Virus record (IMG/VR): IMGVR_UViG_3300017969_002940
Coordinates: 1-22,235 of that record
Reading direction: 5' to 3' (one strand)
Source of the DNA: a virus
Length of the DNA stretch: 22,235 nt
Positions 1 through 12,522 of this stretch are shown here, piece after piece. The notes under the pieces were generated by a model. It was given only the letters and a program-made list of their open reading frames with translations, searched no databases and had not been told where the DNA came from. A program made the translations under genes and the position numbers. Each line of letters begins with the position of its first letter. The first letter of the stretch is position 1.

Positions 1-89
1 AACATTAGTTTACCGCAGTACTTGTCGTTAGTAGCCCATATTAGTTCACGGCCCCAACCTTTTTCTTGAACACCATTAAGCTGTGTCAT
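1..89 (-). CDS. Cupin-type sugar-metabolism protein (N-terminal fragment)
   Basis: This is the first 29 codons of a leftward gene that runs off the window. The start at 87-89 is preceded by a good Shine-Dalgarno (AAAGGATG on the minus strand). The visible peptide contains GWGRELIWATNDKYCGKL, which resembles the opening of small cupin proteins related to the C-terminal domain of type II mannose-6-phosphate isomerases, often found beside sugar-nucleotide genes. It overlaps the end of the heptose kinase/nucleotidyltransferase gene by 14 bases, so it is probably the third gene of the same operon and acts on the same sugar pathway. The metal-binding cupin motifs lie outside the window, so the family call rests on the N-terminal motif and the context only. 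Confidence 0.5.
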   Translation of the reverse strand, partial: MTQLNGVQEKGWGRELIWATNDKYCGKLM

Positions 90-1227
90 ATTGCATCCTT
101 TCGATAGTACTTGTTGAACTGTATCCTTTAACAGTAGGTACAATATGCACAGGTGCTAAATCGTGTCCTACAATTTCTTCTACAGTATAATCTCCGCCCT
201 TGACAATCATGTCAGGCTTTATTTGTTTAATTAATTCGTATGGAGTGTCTTCTTCAAACACAATCACTTCATCTACATAAGGTATAAGATCAAGTTGCTC
301 TAGTCTTGTTTGTTGATCGTTAATAGGACGACTGTTTCCTTTAAGACGTTTAACACTTTCATCACTATTTAATCCTACAACTAATTTGTCTCCTAAACTG
401 CGAGCTTCTTTGAGTAATGTTAAATGTCCTTTGTGTAATACATCGAAACATCCATTGGTGAATATTACACGTTTTTGTAAATCTTTTTCTTTAAGAATGT
501 ATGTACCAACGTGTTTTACACTTTCGGTTGAACCTTTGACAGATAGTTCTAATGCTTTTTGATAATCATATCCTTTAGTAAGTGCATATACAAATGCCGC
601 TAAGAAACAATCACCTGCACCTGTTACATCTGATACTTCGACAGGATCAACTGGCACGGTATAATACTGTTTGTCTATTTCTGCTATGACAGGCTTAGAT
701 GCATTTGTTGTTATAATATTACCAAGCCACTTTGTAAAACCTAAGCCTTCAAACTCTGCACCATTGGGTTTAACTAGCCACGCATCTTTATAATATTGCG
801 CTGGTCGTTTTGGATCTACAATAGTATAACAACCTGCACTATTTGCCATAGCTATGATTTCTTCAGCAAAATCTAGTACACCTTTATTGTAGTCACTTAA
901 TACAACATAGTCATAGATACTAAAATCTAATCCTCTAAGATCTTCTAGTATTTCATAACCGTCAGCATAATAGTCTTTGTCGATTCTTGTAATGTAATGA
1001 CCATCACACATTACACGAGTTTTAATACTTTTAGGTTGATCGTAATCATACAATGCTGCATTAACACCAAGACTACGCAAATTTTCATATACTAATCCTG
1101 CACCACCAATTGTTTCTTTAATTTCATTTTGTGTAACAACTGGAACAGGAGCTTCGGGGCTTAGTCTGGTGCTTGTACCGTAAATGTATTCATCTAAGAT
1201 AATATCACCTATAACTAGTACTTTCAT
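76..1227 (-). CDS. hldE: Compact bifunctional HldE-like heptose-7-phosphate kinase / heptose-1-phosphate nucleotidyltransferase
   Basis: The protein has two domains in the HldE (RfaE) order. Residues 1-245 are a PfkB/ribokinase-type sugar kinase, with an HldE-like opening (GDIILDEYIYG, then RLSPEAPVPVV), LSDYNKGVL near 110-118, VDPKRP at 138 and DVTGAGD at 200-206, whose last Asp is the usual catalytic base. Residues 254-383 are a nucleotidyltransferase with TNGCFDVLHKGH (HxGH at 265-268) and GLNSD. In the ADP-heptose pathway these domains phosphorylate heptose-7-phosphate at C1 and later transfer a nucleotide to heptose-1-phosphate. It is 383 aa against about 475 in Escherichia coli; the kinase domain is shortened, mainly between the GGAG motif and the substrate-arginine region. 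Its start overlaps the epimerase stop by 4 bases (ATGA), and AAAGG lies upstream. Both active-site motifs look intact. The exact sugar and nucleotide cannot be read from sequence. Confidence 0.88.
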   Translation of the reverse strand: MKVLVIGDIILDEYIYGTSTRLSPEAPVPVVTQNEIKETIGGAGLVYENLRSLGVNAALYDYDQPKSIKTRVMCDGHYITRIDKDYYADGYEILEDLRGLDFSIYDYVVLSDYNKGVLDFAEEIIAMANSAGCYTIVDPKRPAQYYKDAWLVKPNGAEFEGLGFTKWLGNIITTNASKPVIAEIDKQYYTVPVDPVEVSDVTGAGDCFLAAFVYALTKGYDYQKALELSVKGSTESVKHVGTYILKEKDLQKRVIFTNGCFDVLHKGHLTLLKEARSLGDKLVVGLNSDESVKRLKGNSRPINDQQTRLEQLDLIPYVDEVIVFEEDTPYELIKQIKPDMIVKGGDYTVEEIVGHDLAPVHIVPTVKGYSSTSTIERMQYDTA

Positions 1228-2093
1228 ATATTCGCCTTTACAAATTCTTCTGGAGTAATAAATTTATAATCTCCTATTAGTTTTAGTAATTGTGTATTGT
1301 TACTTCGAGTATACATTTGATAGATACCTTTTAATTCTTCTGGAACATCAATATATATGATTTTTGCACCATATGTTTTTGCAATCAAATCTCCCCAGTT
1401 TTGAAAACTGTAGGTATTGCCTGTTCCTAAATTACATGTAAATGATGTAGGAATTTTCATGTGTGTTTCATACATAATTTTAACAACATCATCTACACAA
1501 ATAAAGTCTCTGTGTACTGATTGACTGTTTCTAAATAACTTAATTGAAGAGTTTGTTTTTGCTTGATGTACAAAGTTGCTGTAAGGGCTTGCCATACCTG
1601 CATATACTTTGTGTTGTTCTCTATTGCCATATACATTAAAAAAGCGCCAGCTTTGTGTTTTACCAGAAGCTTTTGCAAGTATGTTGTCGCACATCATTTT
1701 AGTTGCAGCATACATATTTTTTGGTGCTGCATTACTAGATACCTCTTCGGTATCTTCATTGTCTCCATAAACACTAGCACTACTAGCAAACACTATGTCA
1801 GTTGCAGTTTCTAATAACTGTCGAGTGTACATAACGTTACTTTGATATATACTATCCCAGTCGTTGCTACTAGTTTTACTGTTAGCACCTAAATGCCAAA
1901 CAGTATCTTTGCTTAAATCTCGACTTAGTAGCTCGCTTGGATGTATAAAATCCTCAAACTCTAAACCTGCTAGATTTGCTACTTTGTGCGGGTTAAGCGT
2001 ATCAGCACAAATGATATCTTTGTGTCCTTGGCTGTTTAAGTACGCAACCATATTGCTGCCAACAAAACCAGCAGCTCCTGTTACAATATGCAT
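1224..2093 (-). CDS. hldD: ADP-L-glycero-D-manno-heptose 6-epimerase-like SDR protein
   Basis: This is an NAD(P)-dependent extended SDR epimerase most like HldD (RfaD). It has the Rossmann motif TGAAGFVGSN at the N-terminus, FASSASVYGD (catalytic Ser region), the YxxxK pair in YAATK, RFFNVYGNRE, HRDFICVDDVV and NLGTGNTYSF. These follow the order seen in HldD, as does the C-terminal segment LKGIYQMYT. The family inverts C6 of ADP-heptose. I place the start at 2091-2093 and not at the in-frame ATG at 2109-2111: the downstream ATG has AAAGGAG (2100-2106) at ideal spacing, and the upstream ATG abuts the -10 box and lies before the predicted transcript start. That gives 289 aa, slightly shorter than the roughly 310 aa of bacterial HldD. 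It heads the leftward operon with the HldE-like gene and the cupin. GmhA and GmhB partners are not in the window. Confidence 0.88.
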   Translation of the reverse strand: MHIVTGAAGFVGSNMVAYLNSQGHKDIICADTLNPHKVANLAGLEFEDFIHPSELLSRDLSKDTVWHLGANSKTSSNDWDSIYQSNVMYTRQLLETATDIVFASSASVYGDNEDTEEVSSNAAPKNMYAATKMMCDNILAKASGKTQSWRFFNVYGNREQHKVYAGMASPYSNFVHQAKTNSSIKLFRNSQSVHRDFICVDDVVKIMYETHMKIPTSFTCNLGTGNTYSFQNWGDLIAKTYGAKIIYIDVPEELKGIYQMYTRSNNTQLLKLIGDYKFITPEEFVKANI

Positions 2094-2111
2094 ATGTGAC
2101 TCCTTTAACAT

Positions 2112-2144: not shown

Positions 2145-2152
2145 CATAAATA
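2145..2152 (+). promoter_or_regulatory. T4-type late promoter motif upstream of the DUF454-hemA-pcyX operon
   Basis: CATAAATA matches the T4 late consensus TATAAATA at all but the first base. It lies 28 bases before the ATG of the DUF454 gene, with AAAGGA between. No convincing sigma70-type pair is visible for this rightward operon, so late expression is the simplest reading. Confidence 0.5.
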
Positions 2153-2180: not shown

Positions 2181-2597
2181 ATGAACATTCAAAAGTATTT
2201 GTATATGGCATTAGGAATTTTCTGTGTAGGAATGGCGTATATAGGCTTTGTTGTTCCTGGCATTCCTTTTAGCATCTTTCTTGTTATAGCAGCATGGGCT
2301 TTTGCAAAATCAAGTCCTAGATTACATAACTGGTTATATAATCATCCTTGGTTTGGAGAGTTTCTTACAAATTGGACATACAAAAAAGTATTCCCAACCA
2401 AAGGCAAATATTTAATGATAGGTGTCATGTCAAGTAGTTTAGCGTTCTTATGGTTTAGTACGGGTAATATCAAAGCAGTTGCGTTTAGCGGAGCGTTTAT
2501 GTTAGGTGTTGCTGTATGGGCTTGGAGATATCCAGGTTCAGTTGAAGAACAAGAACGTAGATTAGCAGCAGGTGAAAAGATTGCTTGGCTTAAATGA
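2181..2597 (+). CDS. DUF454 (YbaN-like) integral membrane protein
   Basis: This small membrane protein of 138 aa has four likely hydrophobic segments, at about residues 7-25, 27-43, 77-94 and 97-115. Between the first and second pairs it has AFAKSSPRLHNWLYNHPWFG, which is the hallmark of the DUF454/YbaN family of bacterial inner-membrane proteins. The family's biochemical role is not established. The start has AAAGGA at 2167-2172. Its stop overlaps the start of the hemA gene in an ATGA arrangement (2594-2597), so the two are translationally coupled. In bacteria DUF454 genes sometimes sit near heme or iron genes, so a role in heme or precursor handling at the membrane is possible, but that is inference from neighbourhood only. 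Confidence 0.85.
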   Translation: MNIQKYLYMALGIFCVGMAYIGFVVPGIPFSIFLVIAAWAFAKSSPRLHNWLYNHPWFGEFLTNWTYKKVFPTKGKYLMIGVMSSSLAFLWFSTGNIKAVAFSGAFMLGVAVWAWRYPGSVEEQERRLAAGEKIAWLK

Positions 2598-3778
2598 TAG
2601 ATCAAAGTAAGTTCCAAACAGTTATTGACAATTTAAAAAGTCAAGGCAATTATCGAGTGTTTAATGACATTCTCAGAGAACGTGGAGAATATCCACAAGC
2701 AATTTACTATGGCCCTTACAATATCAAAAACATTGTAAACTGGTGTTCAAACGATTATTTAGGCATGGGACAAAACAAAGTTGTCTTAGATGCAATGCAT
2801 ACTGCATTAAATCAAACTGGTGCAGGTAGTGGCGGAACAAGAAATATCAGTGGTACTAGTCATTATCATGTAGCATTAGAATACGAACTTGCACAGTTAC
2901 ATAAAAAATCCAAAGCATTATTATACTCTAGTGCATATGTTGCAAACGAATGGAGTTTAATAGCACTTAGTAAAATTATAACAGATATTGAGTTTGTTAG
3001 TGACAGTAAAAATCATGCATCACTCATTCAAGGTATAAGACATAGCCAGGCACCAAAACATATATTTGCTCATAATGATTTAGTAGAACTTGAAACTATA
3101 CTAAAAAATATAAAGGGTACACCGTGTATAGTATTTGAAAGTGTCTACAGTATGGACGGATTTGTCAGTGATATAAAAGGTATTGTTGAACTTGCAGACA
3201 AGTATAATGCAATTACTTACATTGACGAAGTTCATGCTGTTGGTTTATACGGAAACCAAGGTGCAGGCTATCTTGAGAAGTTAGGACTACAAGATAAAGT
3301 TGACTTTGTAAACGGAACACTTGGGAAAGCATTTGGAGTACAAGGTGGCTATATTGCCGGAGACAGTGTTGCTATTGATGCAATAAGAAGTGTAGCAAGT
3401 GGATTTATTTTTACTACTAGTTTAAGTCCTGTAATTTGCGCAGGCGCACTAGCAGCTATAAAATATTTGCGCAGTGATAATGGTGTCGAACTTAGAAAAC
3501 AACATCAACAAAGAGCTAATAAACTTAAACAACTTCTTAAAGAAAATAACATAGATGTTGTCGACAACGAAACACATATTGTTCCTGTATTAATAAGAGA
3601 TGCAGTTCGTTGTAAACAACTAAGTGATATATTAATAAACGAATATAACATATATGTACAAGCAATTAATTATCCTACAGTTGATGTAGGCACTGAAAGA
3701 CTGCGATTTGCACCTACACCGTTACATACTGATGCAATGATAAATGATCTAGTAGATAAGTTAAAGGAAATATTATGA
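2594..3778 (+). CDS. hemA: 5-aminolevulinate synthase (ALAS)
   Basis: This PLP-dependent enzyme of the alpha-oxoamine synthase family condenses glycine and succinyl-CoA to 5-aminolevulinate, the first committed step of tetrapyrrole synthesis in alphaproteobacteria. Visible features in order are an Arg at 21, CSNDYLGMG (51-59), GAGSGGTRNISGTSHYH (76-92), KNHASLIQGI with His141 for cofactor stacking, FESVYSMDG (181-189), YIDEVHAVG with Asp211 and His214, GTLGKAFGVQGGY with the PLP lysine at 245, and INYPTVDVGTERLRFAPTP with Arg371 near the C-terminus. The NISGTSHYH and YPTV-GTERLR motifs separate it from KBL and BioF. At 394 aa it is close to the normal bacterial length and appears catalytically complete. 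There is no clear Shine-Dalgarno; the ATGA overlap with the upstream gene implies coupled translation. It is followed directly by a bilin reductase gene. Confidence 0.95.
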   Translation: MIDQSKFQTVIDNLKSQGNYRVFNDILRERGEYPQAIYYGPYNIKNIVNWCSNDYLGMGQNKVVLDAMHTALNQTGAGSGGTRNISGTSHYHVALEYELAQLHKKSKALLYSSAYVANEWSLIALSKIITDIEFVSDSKNHASLIQGIRHSQAPKHIFAHNDLVELETILKNIKGTPCIVFESVYSMDGFVSDIKGIVELADKYNAITYIDEVHAVGLYGNQGAGYLEKLGLQDKVDFVNGTLGKAFGVQGGYIAGDSVAIDAIRSVASGFIFTTSLSPVICAGALAAIKYLRSDNGVELRKQHQQRANKLKQLLKENNIDVVDNETHIVPVLIRDAVRCKQLSDILINEYNIYVQAINYPTVDVGTERLRFAPTPLHTDAMINDLVDKLKEIL

Positions 3779-4446
3779 GTGAAATATGGGATAGAATGAT
3801 AGCATGCGAAACAGCCATTATTGAAAAATGTGCTGCCCATGGAGAAGAACAATTTGATGATCCAGAATTTGGTTGGTTAAACCGTGTATTCAAAGGAGAA
3901 CACTTTCGTCGAGCTCATATAGATAGTGTAGATGCAAGAGATACAAAAGGACTGTATATGAGTCACATTTGTATTTTTCCAAATTGGGATAATGATGCTC
4001 CTATATATGGATTTGATATTATTTGTGGACGTAACAAAGTAACAGGCGCCTTTCATGATTATTCTCCTACAGTAGATTGGGAACATCCAATGGTCAACAT
4101 GTTTGGAGATTTTGTAAGTAACTTAGAATGGCGAAAAGAACGTGAACTTCCGCCGTGGGCAAAAGCCATATTCAGCAAACACATGGTAGCCGCTTCAAAT
4201 ATTAATACCATTGAAGAAATGGAGCAAGTTGTTACTATGGCATTAGACAATTTGGATACCTATATAGCCGAACTTCCAAAGTATACTACATCTAGTGCCA
4301 ATCAGACGTTAATTCGTGAAAAACAAAATAGATATTGTTATTATCAAAAGCAGAATCCCCATACACCTAAAGTTATGGAAAGTTTAGGATTGCCAGCAGA
4401 CGATATTCGTGTTTTTATTGAAGAATGTTTGTTTCCAGAAGTTTAA
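3775..4446 (+). CDS. pcyX: Ferredoxin-dependent bilin reductase, PcyX/PcyA/PebS family
   Basis: The family reduces biliverdin IX-alpha to a phycobilin using electrons from ferredoxin. Visible family features are HIDSVDARD (48-56) in a substrate-side segment, IFPNWDNDAPIYGFDIICG (67-85), the conserved catalytic-type Asp at 95 in FHDYSP, EWRKERELPPWAKAIFSKH (118-136), NRYCYYQKQNPHTPKVMES (185-203) and a terminal FIEECLF. At 223 aa it is slightly shorter than cyanobacterial PcyA. The PebS and PcyX subfamilies are known from phages; the viral PcyX clade has been reported to make phycoerythrobilin. The product here, and the exact subfamily, cannot be assigned by eye. The start overlaps the hemA stop (ATGA at 3775-3778) and has AAAGGA upstream. 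The stop shares TTAA with the convergent Nudix gene. No heme oxygenase or ferredoxin gene is in the window. Confidence 0.92.
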   Translation: MSEIWDRMIACETAIIEKCAAHGEEQFDDPEFGWLNRVFKGEHFRRAHIDSVDARDTKGLYMSHICIFPNWDNDAPIYGFDIICGRNKVTGAFHDYSPTVDWEHPMVNMFGDFVSNLEWRKERELPPWAKAIFSKHMVAASNINTIEEMEQVVTMALDNLDTYIAELPKYTTSSANQTLIREKQNRYCYYQKQNPHTPKVMESLGLPADDIRVFIEECLFPEV

Positions 4447-4901
4447 AAAGTATCTAACCAATTTGGTAGGTCTAGTTTATCTTTTTTACTAGAGTATATT
4501 GTTTTTATTTTTTCTACCATTTCTTTGTTTTCTAGTACAAGCCTTGCGCCTCTGTGTAGTGGACGAGGCCATCCATTTATACCAACCCAAGCATATCCCG
4601 CACTTTCATGATTACATTGAGGAATAAATTCTTCAAATACAGTTATACAAAAGGCATTGTATGTAAATTTTTTGTCATCGCTAATAAATGTGTGTAAAGG
4701 ATAAACTTTTTCTAAATCTGGAAGTATGCCAAGCTCTTCTTTACATTCACGTAGTAGTGTTTCTATCGGACGTTCGCGTTTAAGAGCTTTACCTCCCCAA
4801 AAACTCCATGTAAGAGGATGACTCCCTTGTTTACTTCTTTGTTGTAGCATGATTCTGCCTGTGTCTAAGGCAAGAAAACAGCATCCACTTGCTTGTATCA
4901 T
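4443..4901 (-). CDS. Nudix hydrolase
   Basis: The protein has a complete Nudix box at about residues 37-59. It begins GKALKRE, continues through the invariant RE (REC) and ends KEELGI, so the pattern GX5EX7REUXEEXGU is satisfied with Cys at the first hydrophobic position. The N-terminal LQQRSKQGSHPLTWSFWGG is typical of small MutT-like enzymes of about 150 aa. The family cleaves nucleoside diphosphates linked to another moiety; candidate substrates include oxidised dNTPs, nucleotide sugars and dinucleotides, and the sequence does not decide among them. Its ATG shares one base with the gp15 stop (TAATG at 4899-4903), so it is the last gene of the leftward gp14-gp15 operon. Its stop interlocks with that of the bilin reductase on the other strand. 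Confidence 0.9.
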   Translation of the reverse strand: MIQASGCCFLALDTGRIMLQQRSKQGSHPLTWSFWGGKALKRERPIETLLRECKEELGILPDLEKVYPLHTFISDDKKFTYNAFCITVFEEFIPQCNHESAGYAWVGINGWPRPLHRGARLVLENKEMVEKIKTIYSSKKDKLDLPNWLDTF

Positions 4902-9923: not shown

Positions 9924-9961
9924 TTAACTACGTGGTTAACCTCTATATCCCCCCTGATATA
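9924..9961 (+). repeat. Two short inverted repeats between the kinase-like gene and gp18
   Basis: TTAACTACGTGGTTAA (9924-9939) is a 16-base palindrome apart from one T-G mismatch. TATATC and GATATA (9944-9961) flank a C-rich six-base loop. Neither is followed by a T run, so a normal intrinsic terminator is not supported. They could be an mRNA 3' end stabiliser or a protein site. Confidence 0.35.
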
Positions 9962-9971
9962 TAGCAACTCT

Positions 9972-9979
9972 GGTAAATA
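9972..9979 (+). promoter_or_regulatory. Late promoter-like motif of gp18
   Basis: GGTAAATA keeps the TAAATA core of the late motif. It lies 35 bases before the gp18 ATG, leaving room for AGAGGAG at 10001-10007, an unusually strong ribosome site that fits a very abundant product. Confidence 0.5.
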
Positions 9980-10014
9980 GTTTTAGCAAATACTTTTATC
10001 AGAGGAGCAAGAAT

Positions 10015-12522
10015 ATGGCATTAGTATCTCCAGGTGTTGAGGTCCAAGTAGTAGATGAAAGTGCATACGGTGCACCAGGTGCCGGCACAGTACCACTACT
10101 ATTGGTAGCAACACATCAAGACAAAACAGATCCGACAGGCAGTGAAGCAGACGGTATTGCCAAGTATACAAAAAGTCAGTATGCAGGTGAAGTAATTAAA
10201 GTTACTAGCCAGCGTGAGCTTACACAGTATTTTGGTAATCCAACATTTACAATGGATGGATCAGCAGTAGTACAAGGCAGCGAAACCAGTGAATATGGTA
10301 TTATGGCTGCATACAGTTACTTAGGTCAAGGCAATCAAGCATACATTGTACGTGCAGATTTAGATCTAAATGAATTAAACGCAACAACAACTGCACCAAC
10401 AGCAAAGTGGTCAACAGCTAATACTATTTGGCTGGACTATGATGAATCAAAGTTTGGTATTCATCAATGGAGTGCAGCAACAAACAAGTGGGTTGAACAA
10501 ACACCTCTTGTTGAAGTTAACGCAGACGATGGTTCAGACATTGCAGGTGGTGTACACACACCAACAACTACAGTAGTAAACGGATCATTCCTTGCAGTTG
10601 TACACGTTGACAACGAAATAAGTGTAACCGCAGTACGTCAAATGTCAGTAGAATATTTTTACGGTGTTAGCGGCGCATGGGAAGTAGTTGATCAATCAAC
10701 AGGTATCAGTACAGGCGAAGCAGTAACATGGGATGCACACTACAATGCACCAGCAGGACCTAGCAATGGTGATATTTGGGTTAAAACAACACGCCCAGGT
10801 AATGGTCTTAACTTAGCCCTATACAGTTACGACTCAACATTTAACATGTTTACACCACTAACAGTAGAAGGTGTTAGCACTACACAAACAGCAGGTGCTG
10901 CTGGTATTGGTGACTTTGTAGCACAAGATGGCTCAAGTACAACAGCACTAACAGCAGGCGGTGTCTCTGTTGGGAATATTTTACTTGATCAAGAAGCAGC
11001 AACAGCCGCAGTTATTATTATTAGACCTATAACAGCAGGTGGTGCAGTTGGCACAGACCTTACAGCAGGTTCTTATACAACAGCACTAGCAATGGCAGAC
11101 ATTCCTACAGGAACTCCTGCGAACGGTACATACTGGTATGATAATACTATTGGCGCATTGGATGTATATTCAGTACAGCCAGGCGGATTTACACCTGTAA
11201 CTCCTACATATAGTACAACTGCTCCAACAGGTGCAGTATTAGGCGATGTTTGGATTGACACAACATACGCAGGTGAAAACATGGCAAACGAACGTGCTTA
11301 TCCTGCAATTAATGTATGGAATGGTGCAGCATGGATTGCACATGACAACACAGACCAAACTACTACAACTGGTGTTCTTTTTGATGACATCACTGATACA
11401 GCAGCTGACACAAGTAATGGTGGTAGTGCAACAGTTATTACAGGTGGTCCTAACCCAGCGTTATATCCAAACGGTATGATTGCAGTTAACATGGCACAAA
11501 GTAAAAATACTGTAAGAGAATACAACAGTGTAGCAGGTGCATGGAGAAATGGTGCAGCTAATCACGCAGATGGCAGCGGACGGTTTGGTCGCTATGCACA
11601 GCGTGGTGTTATTGCAACAGCAATGCAAGCGGTTGCGGCAGGTACAGATTTACGTGATCCACAATTCCGCTTTAGCTTAATTGCAGCACCTAACTATCCA
11701 GAACTAGTTGACGAAATGGTTAACCTTAACGCAGACAGAGGCGAAACAGCATTTATTATTGTTGATAGTCCACTTCGTAAAAACCCAACTGATGTTATTA
11801 ACTGGGTTCAAAACGGAAATGTTGCAAGTGAAAATGGCGAAGATGGATTGGTAACAAACAATACATACAGCGCAGTTTACTATCCAGCAGGTCAAACAAC
11901 TGAACCATTAAATGGTAACACAGTTGTTGTTCCTCCTTCACATATGGCACTATACACATATGCATATAACGACAACATTAGCTTCCAATGGTTCCCACCA
12001 GCTGGTCTAACACGTGGTGTTGTGCAAAACGCAACTAGCGTTGGTTATGTTACAACTGAAGGCGAGTTTAAAGCAGTAGCACTAAGTCAAGGACAGCGTG
12101 ATGCAATGTATACAGCTAAATTAAACCCGATTACAACATTTGTTGGACAAGGTACAATTGTATTTGGTCAGAAAACACTACACACTACTACAAGTGCGTT
12201 AGATCGTGTTAACGTTGCAAGACTTGTTGCATATCTAAGAGATCGTTTTGATGAACTAGCTCGTCCGTTCTTATTTGAAATCAACGATGCACAAACAAGA
12301 GCAAGAGCTAAAATTGCATTTGAAAGATTCTTAGCAGATATCTTAAGCCGCAGAGGTCTAAACGACTTTGCAGTTGTATGTGATGAATCAAACAACACAC
12401 CAGCAAGAATTGATCGTAATGAATTTTATGTTGATGTTGCTATCGAACCAGCAAAAGCAGCAGAATTCATTTACATTCCAATCAGATTGGTTAATACAGG
12501 TGCTCTTTCAGAGACAAATTAA
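10015..12522 (+). CDS. 18: Contractile tail sheath protein gp18 with a large inserted domain
   Basis: The N-terminal MALVSPGVEVQVVDES and the SRELTQYFG-like and AYSYLGQGNQAYIVRADL segments are hallmarks of myovirus sheath proteins. The C-terminal 300 residues carry the conserved sheath core, including WFPPAGLTRGV, LNPITTFVGQGTIVFGQKT, NVARLVAYLRDRF and PFLFEINDAQTR. The protein polymerises around the tube and contracts to drive it through the envelope. At 835 aa it is larger than T4 gp18 (659 aa). The surplus lies at about residues 120-520, an outer insertion rich in Thr, Ala and Gly. It contains several copies of a Trp-centred motif (WVKTTRPGNG, YWYDNTIG, VWIDTTYAG, WNGAAWIAHD, AGAWRNG). It has its own late motif, and a strong terminator follows. 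Confidence 0.95.
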   Translation: MALVSPGVEVQVVDESAYGAPGAGTVPLLLVATHQDKTDPTGSEADGIAKYTKSQYAGEVIKVTSQRELTQYFGNPTFTMDGSAVVQGSETSEYGIMAAYSYLGQGNQAYIVRADLDLNELNATTTAPTAKWSTANTIWLDYDESKFGIHQWSAATNKWVEQTPLVEVNADDGSDIAGGVHTPTTTVVNGSFLAVVHVDNEISVTAVRQMSVEYFYGVSGAWEVVDQSTGISTGEAVTWDAHYNAPAGPSNGDIWVKTTRPGNGLNLALYSYDSTFNMFTPLTVEGVSTTQTAGAAGIGDFVAQDGSSTTALTAGGVSVGNILLDQEAATAAVIIIRPITAGGAVGTDLTAGSYTTALAMADIPTGTPANGTYWYDNTIGALDVYSVQPGGFTPVTPTYSTTAPTGAVLGDVWIDTTYAGENMANERAYPAINVWNGAAWIAHDNTDQTTTTGVLFDDITDTAADTSNGGSATVITGGPNPALYPNGMIAVNMAQSKNTVREYNSVAGAWRNGAANHADGSGRFGRYAQRGVIATAMQAVAAGTDLRDPQFRFSLIAAPNYPELVDEMVNLNADRGETAFIIVDSPLRKNPTDVINWVQNGNVASENGEDGLVTNNTYSAVYYPAGQTTEPLNGNTVVVPPSHMALYTYAYNDNISFQWFPPAGLTRGVVQNATSVGYVTTEGEFKAVALSQGQRDAMYTAKLNPITTFVGQGTIVFGQKTLHTTTSALDRVNVARLVAYLRDRFDELARPFLFEINDAQTRARAKIAFERFLADILSRRGLNDFAVVCDESNNTPARIDRNEFYVDVAIEPAKAAEFIYIPIRLVNTGALSETN

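Follow-up and report, generated by a model that had tools for sequence, protein, structure and literature searches.

Why a phage would join the entry enzyme of tetrapyrrole synthesis to a bilin reductase, with a small membrane protein gene in front of both, is the question raised by this locus. The window, meaning the whole stretch of DNA that was analysed, is a 22,235-base virus record and a fragment of a larger phage genome. The relevant features are as follows.

1224 to 2111, minus strand: heptose-epimerase-like gene, divergent flank (PF01370; TIGR02197 below cutoff)
2146 to 2152, plus strand: ATAAATA, possible T4-late-like promoter, 28 nt upstream of the operon
2181 to 2597, plus strand: DUF454 (YbaN-like) small predicted membrane protein, 138 aa (PF04304, E 3.7e-29; all-helical model)
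2594 to 2597, plus strand: ATGA stop/start overlap between DUF454 and ALAS (read from the sequence)
2594 to 3778, plus strand: 5-aminolevulinate synthase (ALAS, vAlaS), 394 aa, PLP lysine K245 (TIGR01821, 555.6 bits; PDB 7x98, 3e-125)
3775 to 3778, plus strand: ATGA stop/start overlap between ALAS and FDBR (read from the sequence; an overlap of 4 or 8 nt is kept in 27 contigs)
3775 to 4446, plus strand: PcyX-type ferredoxin-dependent bilin reductase (FDBR), 223 aa (PF05996, E 3.2e-19; PcyX structure 5owg, 1e-62)
4443 to 4901, minus strand: NUDIX gene, convergent flank, overlapping the end of FDBR by 4 nt (PF00293)

DUF454, ALAS and FDBR form one co-directional unit of overlapping genes, and both ATGA junctions described in the initial annotation are present. 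Two further assemblies contain the region, about 99.97% identical along 10-12 kb, so the locus is neither a product of chance nor an assembly error. Counted once per contig name, 27 distinct public viral contigs from all scans together retain the overlap between ALAS and FDBR, and dN/dS values of about 0.05-0.14, from pairs with unsaturated dS, indicate purifying selection on all three genes alike. The NUDIX and heptose-epimerase-like genes are conserved borders in related contigs and lie outside the operon. An HldE-like kinase/nucleotidyltransferase gene accompanies the latter, the two together lying within 76-2111 (minus strand); both are kept beside the operon in relatives and may represent a phage pathway of ADP-heptose type.

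The phage origin assumed at the outset is borne out by phage structural genes within the same window. The terminase is 57% identical to that of the PA5oct group of Pseudomonas jumbo phages, and the tail sheath and sheath-completion proteins are nearest to the same group, Sinorhizobium phage Phosso and Agrobacterium phage Atu_ph07. Judged by these sequences, the phage is related to the jumbo myoviruses PA5oct, Atu_ph07 and Phosso. The largest close relative record with the ALAS-FDBR pair (G021) spans 197,947 bases, whereas the window itself is a fragment.

The first enzyme had been named as ALAS with an apparently complete active site. It shares its fold family with BioF and KBL, whose profiles match it as well, and a misidentified BioF or KBL was therefore weighed. 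The equivalog profile TIGR01821, however, is passed far above its cutoff of 338.55 bits, and the next-best profiles, glycine C-acetyltransferase (309 bits) and BioF (306 bits), score about 250 bits lower; the best PDB match, 7x98, is itself a 5-aminolevulinate synthase. In the tree (a quick method with SH-aLRT support only), the comparison that had been proposed to separate ALAS from BioF/KBL, the window sequence falls inside a phage ALAS clade (support 97) and not with BioF/KBL. Position 82 is the ALAS-type Thr, where two BioF/KBL-like outgroup rows carry Ser. A BioF or KBL identity was rejected on profile scores, PDB match, tree and residues, and is hardly credible. K245, D211, H214, R21, T82, R371 and other PLP and substrate residues are present, and we take them, from the alignment, to be the counterparts of R. 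capsulatus K248, D214, H217, T83, R374 and others. With catalytic residues uniform across 52 aligned viral rows, the active site is complete, as had been supposed.

The phage ALAS clade also contains Pelagibacteraceae MAG sequences and one Neisseriaceae sequence. The latter lies on a Neisseriaceae chromosome (PsAf; L102, 6001-7188) in a genome that also carries the heme oxygenase gene hemO, and, as it nests among phage ALAS, a phage may possibly have passed it to the bacterium. In one Rhodobacteraceae bin, three contigs (L103, L106, L157) each carry a phage-like ALAS with DUF454 adjoining or about 300 nt away; these could be either phage contamination or real bacterial copies. Matches to ALAS in sequenced phages were BioF/KBL-like genes only, under 36% identity. 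ALAS occurs on at least 591 stretches in IMG/VR, a number which suggests that phages commonly control heme supply.

Regulation of the enzyme by heme may also be altered. Wegner et al. 2024 (PMC11480375) name His342 and Cys400 as the heme-feedback residues of bacterial ALAS. In the alignment, the window protein carries R339 at the R. capsulatus His342 position and stops before the Cys400 position. The His is missing from many bacterial ALAS in the sequence set of this analysis too, so the loss of feedback residues is not specific to phages.

The second enzyme had been called a ferredoxin-dependent bilin reductase, an identity sustained by PF05996 (70 vs 31 bits) and by a closest solved structure, 5owg, that is a PcyX, with PcyA well behind (2e-15). 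According to the main text of PMC11480375, CB_2 makes PCB rather than PEB, which is tied to a missing PcyX Asp55; by our own mapping from the alignment, Asp50 of the window protein would be this Asp55. Aligned to PcyA, Glu76 is replaced by Asp50, while His88 and Asp105 correspond to His64 and Asp81. The PcyX-type Asp at the Glu76 place occurs in all 40 sampled FDBR rows adjoining ALAS or DUF454 (duplicates included) and in the PcyX of Pelagibacter phage Mosig, to which the window FDBR is 47% identical. In cyanophage PcyA the residue is Glu, as it is in about half of the viral FDBRs linked to hemO. The tree that had been proposed for this enzyme places the window sequence with PcyX, in a 17-row clade that includes Mosig PcyX (98/97), with PcyA rows separate at 100/100. 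A single clade (100/99) unites the ALAS-linked FDBRs; Mosig PcyX lies close to it and cyanophage PcyA far away. On sequence grounds, the FDBR is PcyX-type. Given the Asp and the single ALAS-linked clade, its predicted product is phycoerythrobilin (PEB).

Heme oxygenase catalyses the obligatory step between the two enzymes, from heme to biliverdin. No hemO was found in the 22,235-base window, and the idea that one is hidden there was rejected; none adjoins ALAS in the 72 sampled viral loci, and the gene is absent from the overlapping ALAS-FDBR unit of the relatives examined. In G021 it is a lone gene of 174 aa about 20 kb off, and in G284 it lies about 24 kb off. A stop flag had pointed to a broken hemO in G284, a reading that was rejected since the ORF is intact at 177 aa. 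With hemO solitary at about 20-24 kb in these two relatives, the middle step of the proposed heme-to-bilin route lies outside the gene pair. In a neighbouring lineage (L274/G293) the gene order is ALAS, kinase-like gene, hemO, FDBR, and the simplest story is that hemO departed from the cluster in the lineage of the window, although the direction of this change is itself our reading. Near this ALAS-hemO-FDBR row, a reading of the ORFs in L274 shows a CHASE2-type nucleotide cyclase-like protein and a PiT-like phosphate transporter (2635-4671 and 9926-10885). Neither a phage ferredoxin (PF00111) nor a ferrochelatase (PF00762) was detected in 10 and 13 related records, respectively, so the host would have to supply both ferredoxin and the heme enzymes. 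In Pelagibacter phage Mosig, a ferrochelatase is annotated (L340, 1354-2124) five genes upstream of the hemO-pcyX pair. The initial annotation had linked ALAS to bilin within one operon; both enzymes are there, but the complete route is not, as hemO is missing from the window and from the ALAS-FDBR unit.

We regard it as reasonably probable that the operon represents a rearranged form of the valaS/pcyX tetrapyrrole module already published for phages, in a relative of jumbo T4-like myoviruses, and that it serves a route from 5-aminolevulinate to PEB with DUF454 as a helper. During infection, ALAS would form 5-aminolevulinate from glycine and succinyl-CoA despite the presence of heme, and host enzymes would carry it on to heme. 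Phage HemO, or a host one, would then yield biliverdin, which PcyX could reduce to phycoerythrobilin with host ferredoxin. DUF454 would probably act as an inner-membrane helper in heme or iron handling under the raised flux.

How far ALAS and FDBR belong together can be seen from their neighbours, counted among the nearest 80 relatives of each query (72 viral-contig ALAS loci and 70 viral DUF454 loci) and thus not in a random draw. The initial annotation had proposed counting how often the two adjoin: FDBR is directly downstream of ALAS in 22 of the 72 loci, five of which also have DUF454 upstream, and the 27 contigs with the overlap come from all scans together. The commonest arrangement, 39 of the 72, has DUF454 directly downstream of ALAS and no FDBR beside ALAS; the remaining 11 have neither gene adjoining. 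ALAS therefore often serves something besides bilin in its own operon. Perhaps, then, ALAS and DUF454 keep heme for cytochromes up in a dying host, while FDBR clears biliverdin or is a passenger; support of respiration was also proposed by Wegner et al. (PMC11480375, main text). The overlap of ALAS and FDBR in 27 contigs, together with purifying selection on FDBR and its conserved catalytic residues, speaks against this explanation, which we consider rather unlikely. For the same reasons FDBR is not a decaying passenger.

The initial annotation assigned DUF454 no function of its own. The protein scores 101.5 bits on PF04304 against a gathering score of 35.1, and its model is predicted to be all helical (mean pLDDT 88.9), with no match among PDB folds. 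DUF454 is the most recurrent neighbour of phage ALAS, abutting it in 44 of the 72 sampled loci, where most of the pairs overlap or are no more than about 20 nt apart, and conversely ALAS abuts DUF454 in 41 of the 70 viral DUF454 loci. Another 28 of these 70 have neither ALAS nor FDBR adjoining, and a strict bond to ALAS was rejected on this count; three of the 28 (G315, G318, G320) carry hemO and FDBR elsewhere in the record. Upstream of the ALAS-FDBR pair, the window and L003 share one DUF454 lineage and L260-L262 have another, up to 95% identical to the DUF454 of ALAS-DUF454 phages, so this place has been filled at least twice. In L052-L056, with ALAS missing from this place, DUF454 overlaps FDBR directly through the same ATGA.

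Among isolated phages DUF454 is nearly absent, with five matches in 50,697 records. One is an unannotated 3.3 kb record; the other four, with bacterial annotation, go under the name 'Acinetobacter phage MD-2021a'. Two records filed under that name, CAKLQH020000002.1 and CAKLQH020000010.1 (L167, L168), carry bacterial chromosome genes (tRNAs, cysJ, fecA, hemO).

Bacterial DUF454/YbaN proteins belong to the same Pfam family and have an iron- or heme-linked regulation or neighbourhood; in phages, unlike in these, the gene shares a start/stop overlap with ALAS. The ybaN gene of E. coli is a member of the Fur regulon (PMC7157518, PMC10164565). In Avibacterium, iron restriction upregulates DUF454 (PMC7970244), T11SS clusters co-occur with DUF454 as well as with haem oxygenase (PMC12282271), and an Acinetobacter TonB/heme cluster has hemO followed directly by DUF454. 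In ten Gammaproteobacteria loci from 229 genomes (1.5 kb flanks) the two genes never adjoin, and a general adjacency in that class was rejected; the Acinetobacter case and the T11SS survey still stand. A heme or iron role for DUF454 is likely. The regulon, the response in Avibacterium and the Acinetobacter cluster could also suggest that release of heme iron is the purpose of the whole operon, with ALAS refilling heme, HemO freeing the iron, FDBR clearing biliverdin and DUF454 acting in iron/heme homeostasis. This is quite improbable, since heme that is made and then degraded brings zero net iron gain, hemO lies outside the operon, and a four-electron PcyX exceeds what biliverdin clearance needs. 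Chances are about even that phage (and bacterial) tetrapyrrole metabolism has in DUF454 a working part that has gone unrecognised, such as a membrane protein for handling heme, porphyrin or iron, and that phages have taken it up again and again and tied its translation to that of ALAS. For a family whose function has been obscure, this provides a testable job, as it recurs beside phage ALAS and its bacterial copies are Fur-regulated and found beside heme oxygenase.

Much of this setting has precedent. The main text of Wegner et al. 2024 (PMC11480375) already describes ALAS in phages as linked to hemO and pcyA/X, active and deprived of the feedback residues, and the characterised phage ALAS and PcyA/X, including those of phage CB_2, are active enzymes. 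Coexpression of phage HemO and FDBR in E. coli did not reduce porphyrin accumulation there, which speaks against the route to PEB. Three forms are described there: the full cassette, hemO and pcyA/X together with valaS nearby, and valaS alone. The window resembles these in that its ALAS keeps the catalytic residues, lacks those for heme feedback and is encoded close to a PcyX-like FDBR. Measured against the three-gene valaS-hemO-pcyA/X cassette, valaS and pcyX are together in a phage, but hemO is absent in and beside the cluster; here valaS and pcyX overlap directly and hemO is elsewhere. The contigs of Wegner et al. group with pelagiphages by neck protein, whereas the nearest isolates here are the jumbo phages of the PA5oct group, Atu_ph07 and Phosso. 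The marine-phage PcyX proteins (5owg; Mosig) are like the window FDBR in sequence, in the PcyX-type Asp and in the conserved His and Asp, but there the partner gene is hemO and here it is ALAS. The hemO-pcyA-alaS island of Bradyrhizobium ORS278 (via PMC11480375) likewise groups ALAS with an FDBR; it is bacterial, however, includes hemO and a phytochrome gene, and its FDBR is of PcyA type.

DUF454 does not come up in the main text of PMC11480375 (figure labels and supplements, where it may appear, set apart), and no report was found in a literature search for DUF454 with heme or phage. Compared with that text, the overlap of valaS and pcyX free of hemO, the jumbo-phage-related setting and DUF454 as a recurrent partner were not found described. 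Whether the coupled operon was new had been left open initially: the combination of ALAS and bilin reductase in phages dates from 2024, and the parts that appear new include the hemO-free overlap and the partner DUF454. The phage tetrapyrrole module extends to a lineage other than the pelagiphage-like one, with entry enzyme and bilin reductase physically coupled and heme oxygenase apart.

In the window, L003, L053, L058 and L260, a TAAATA core precedes the operon by about 28-45 nt and might resemble a T4 late promoter. Over the whole window, ATAAATA is not enriched relative to shuffles, which makes this a weak reading. All six plus-strand copies of ATAAATA (at 2146, 8627, 12585, 14112, 15057 and 19061) sit 5-30 nt upstream of a plus-strand gene start.
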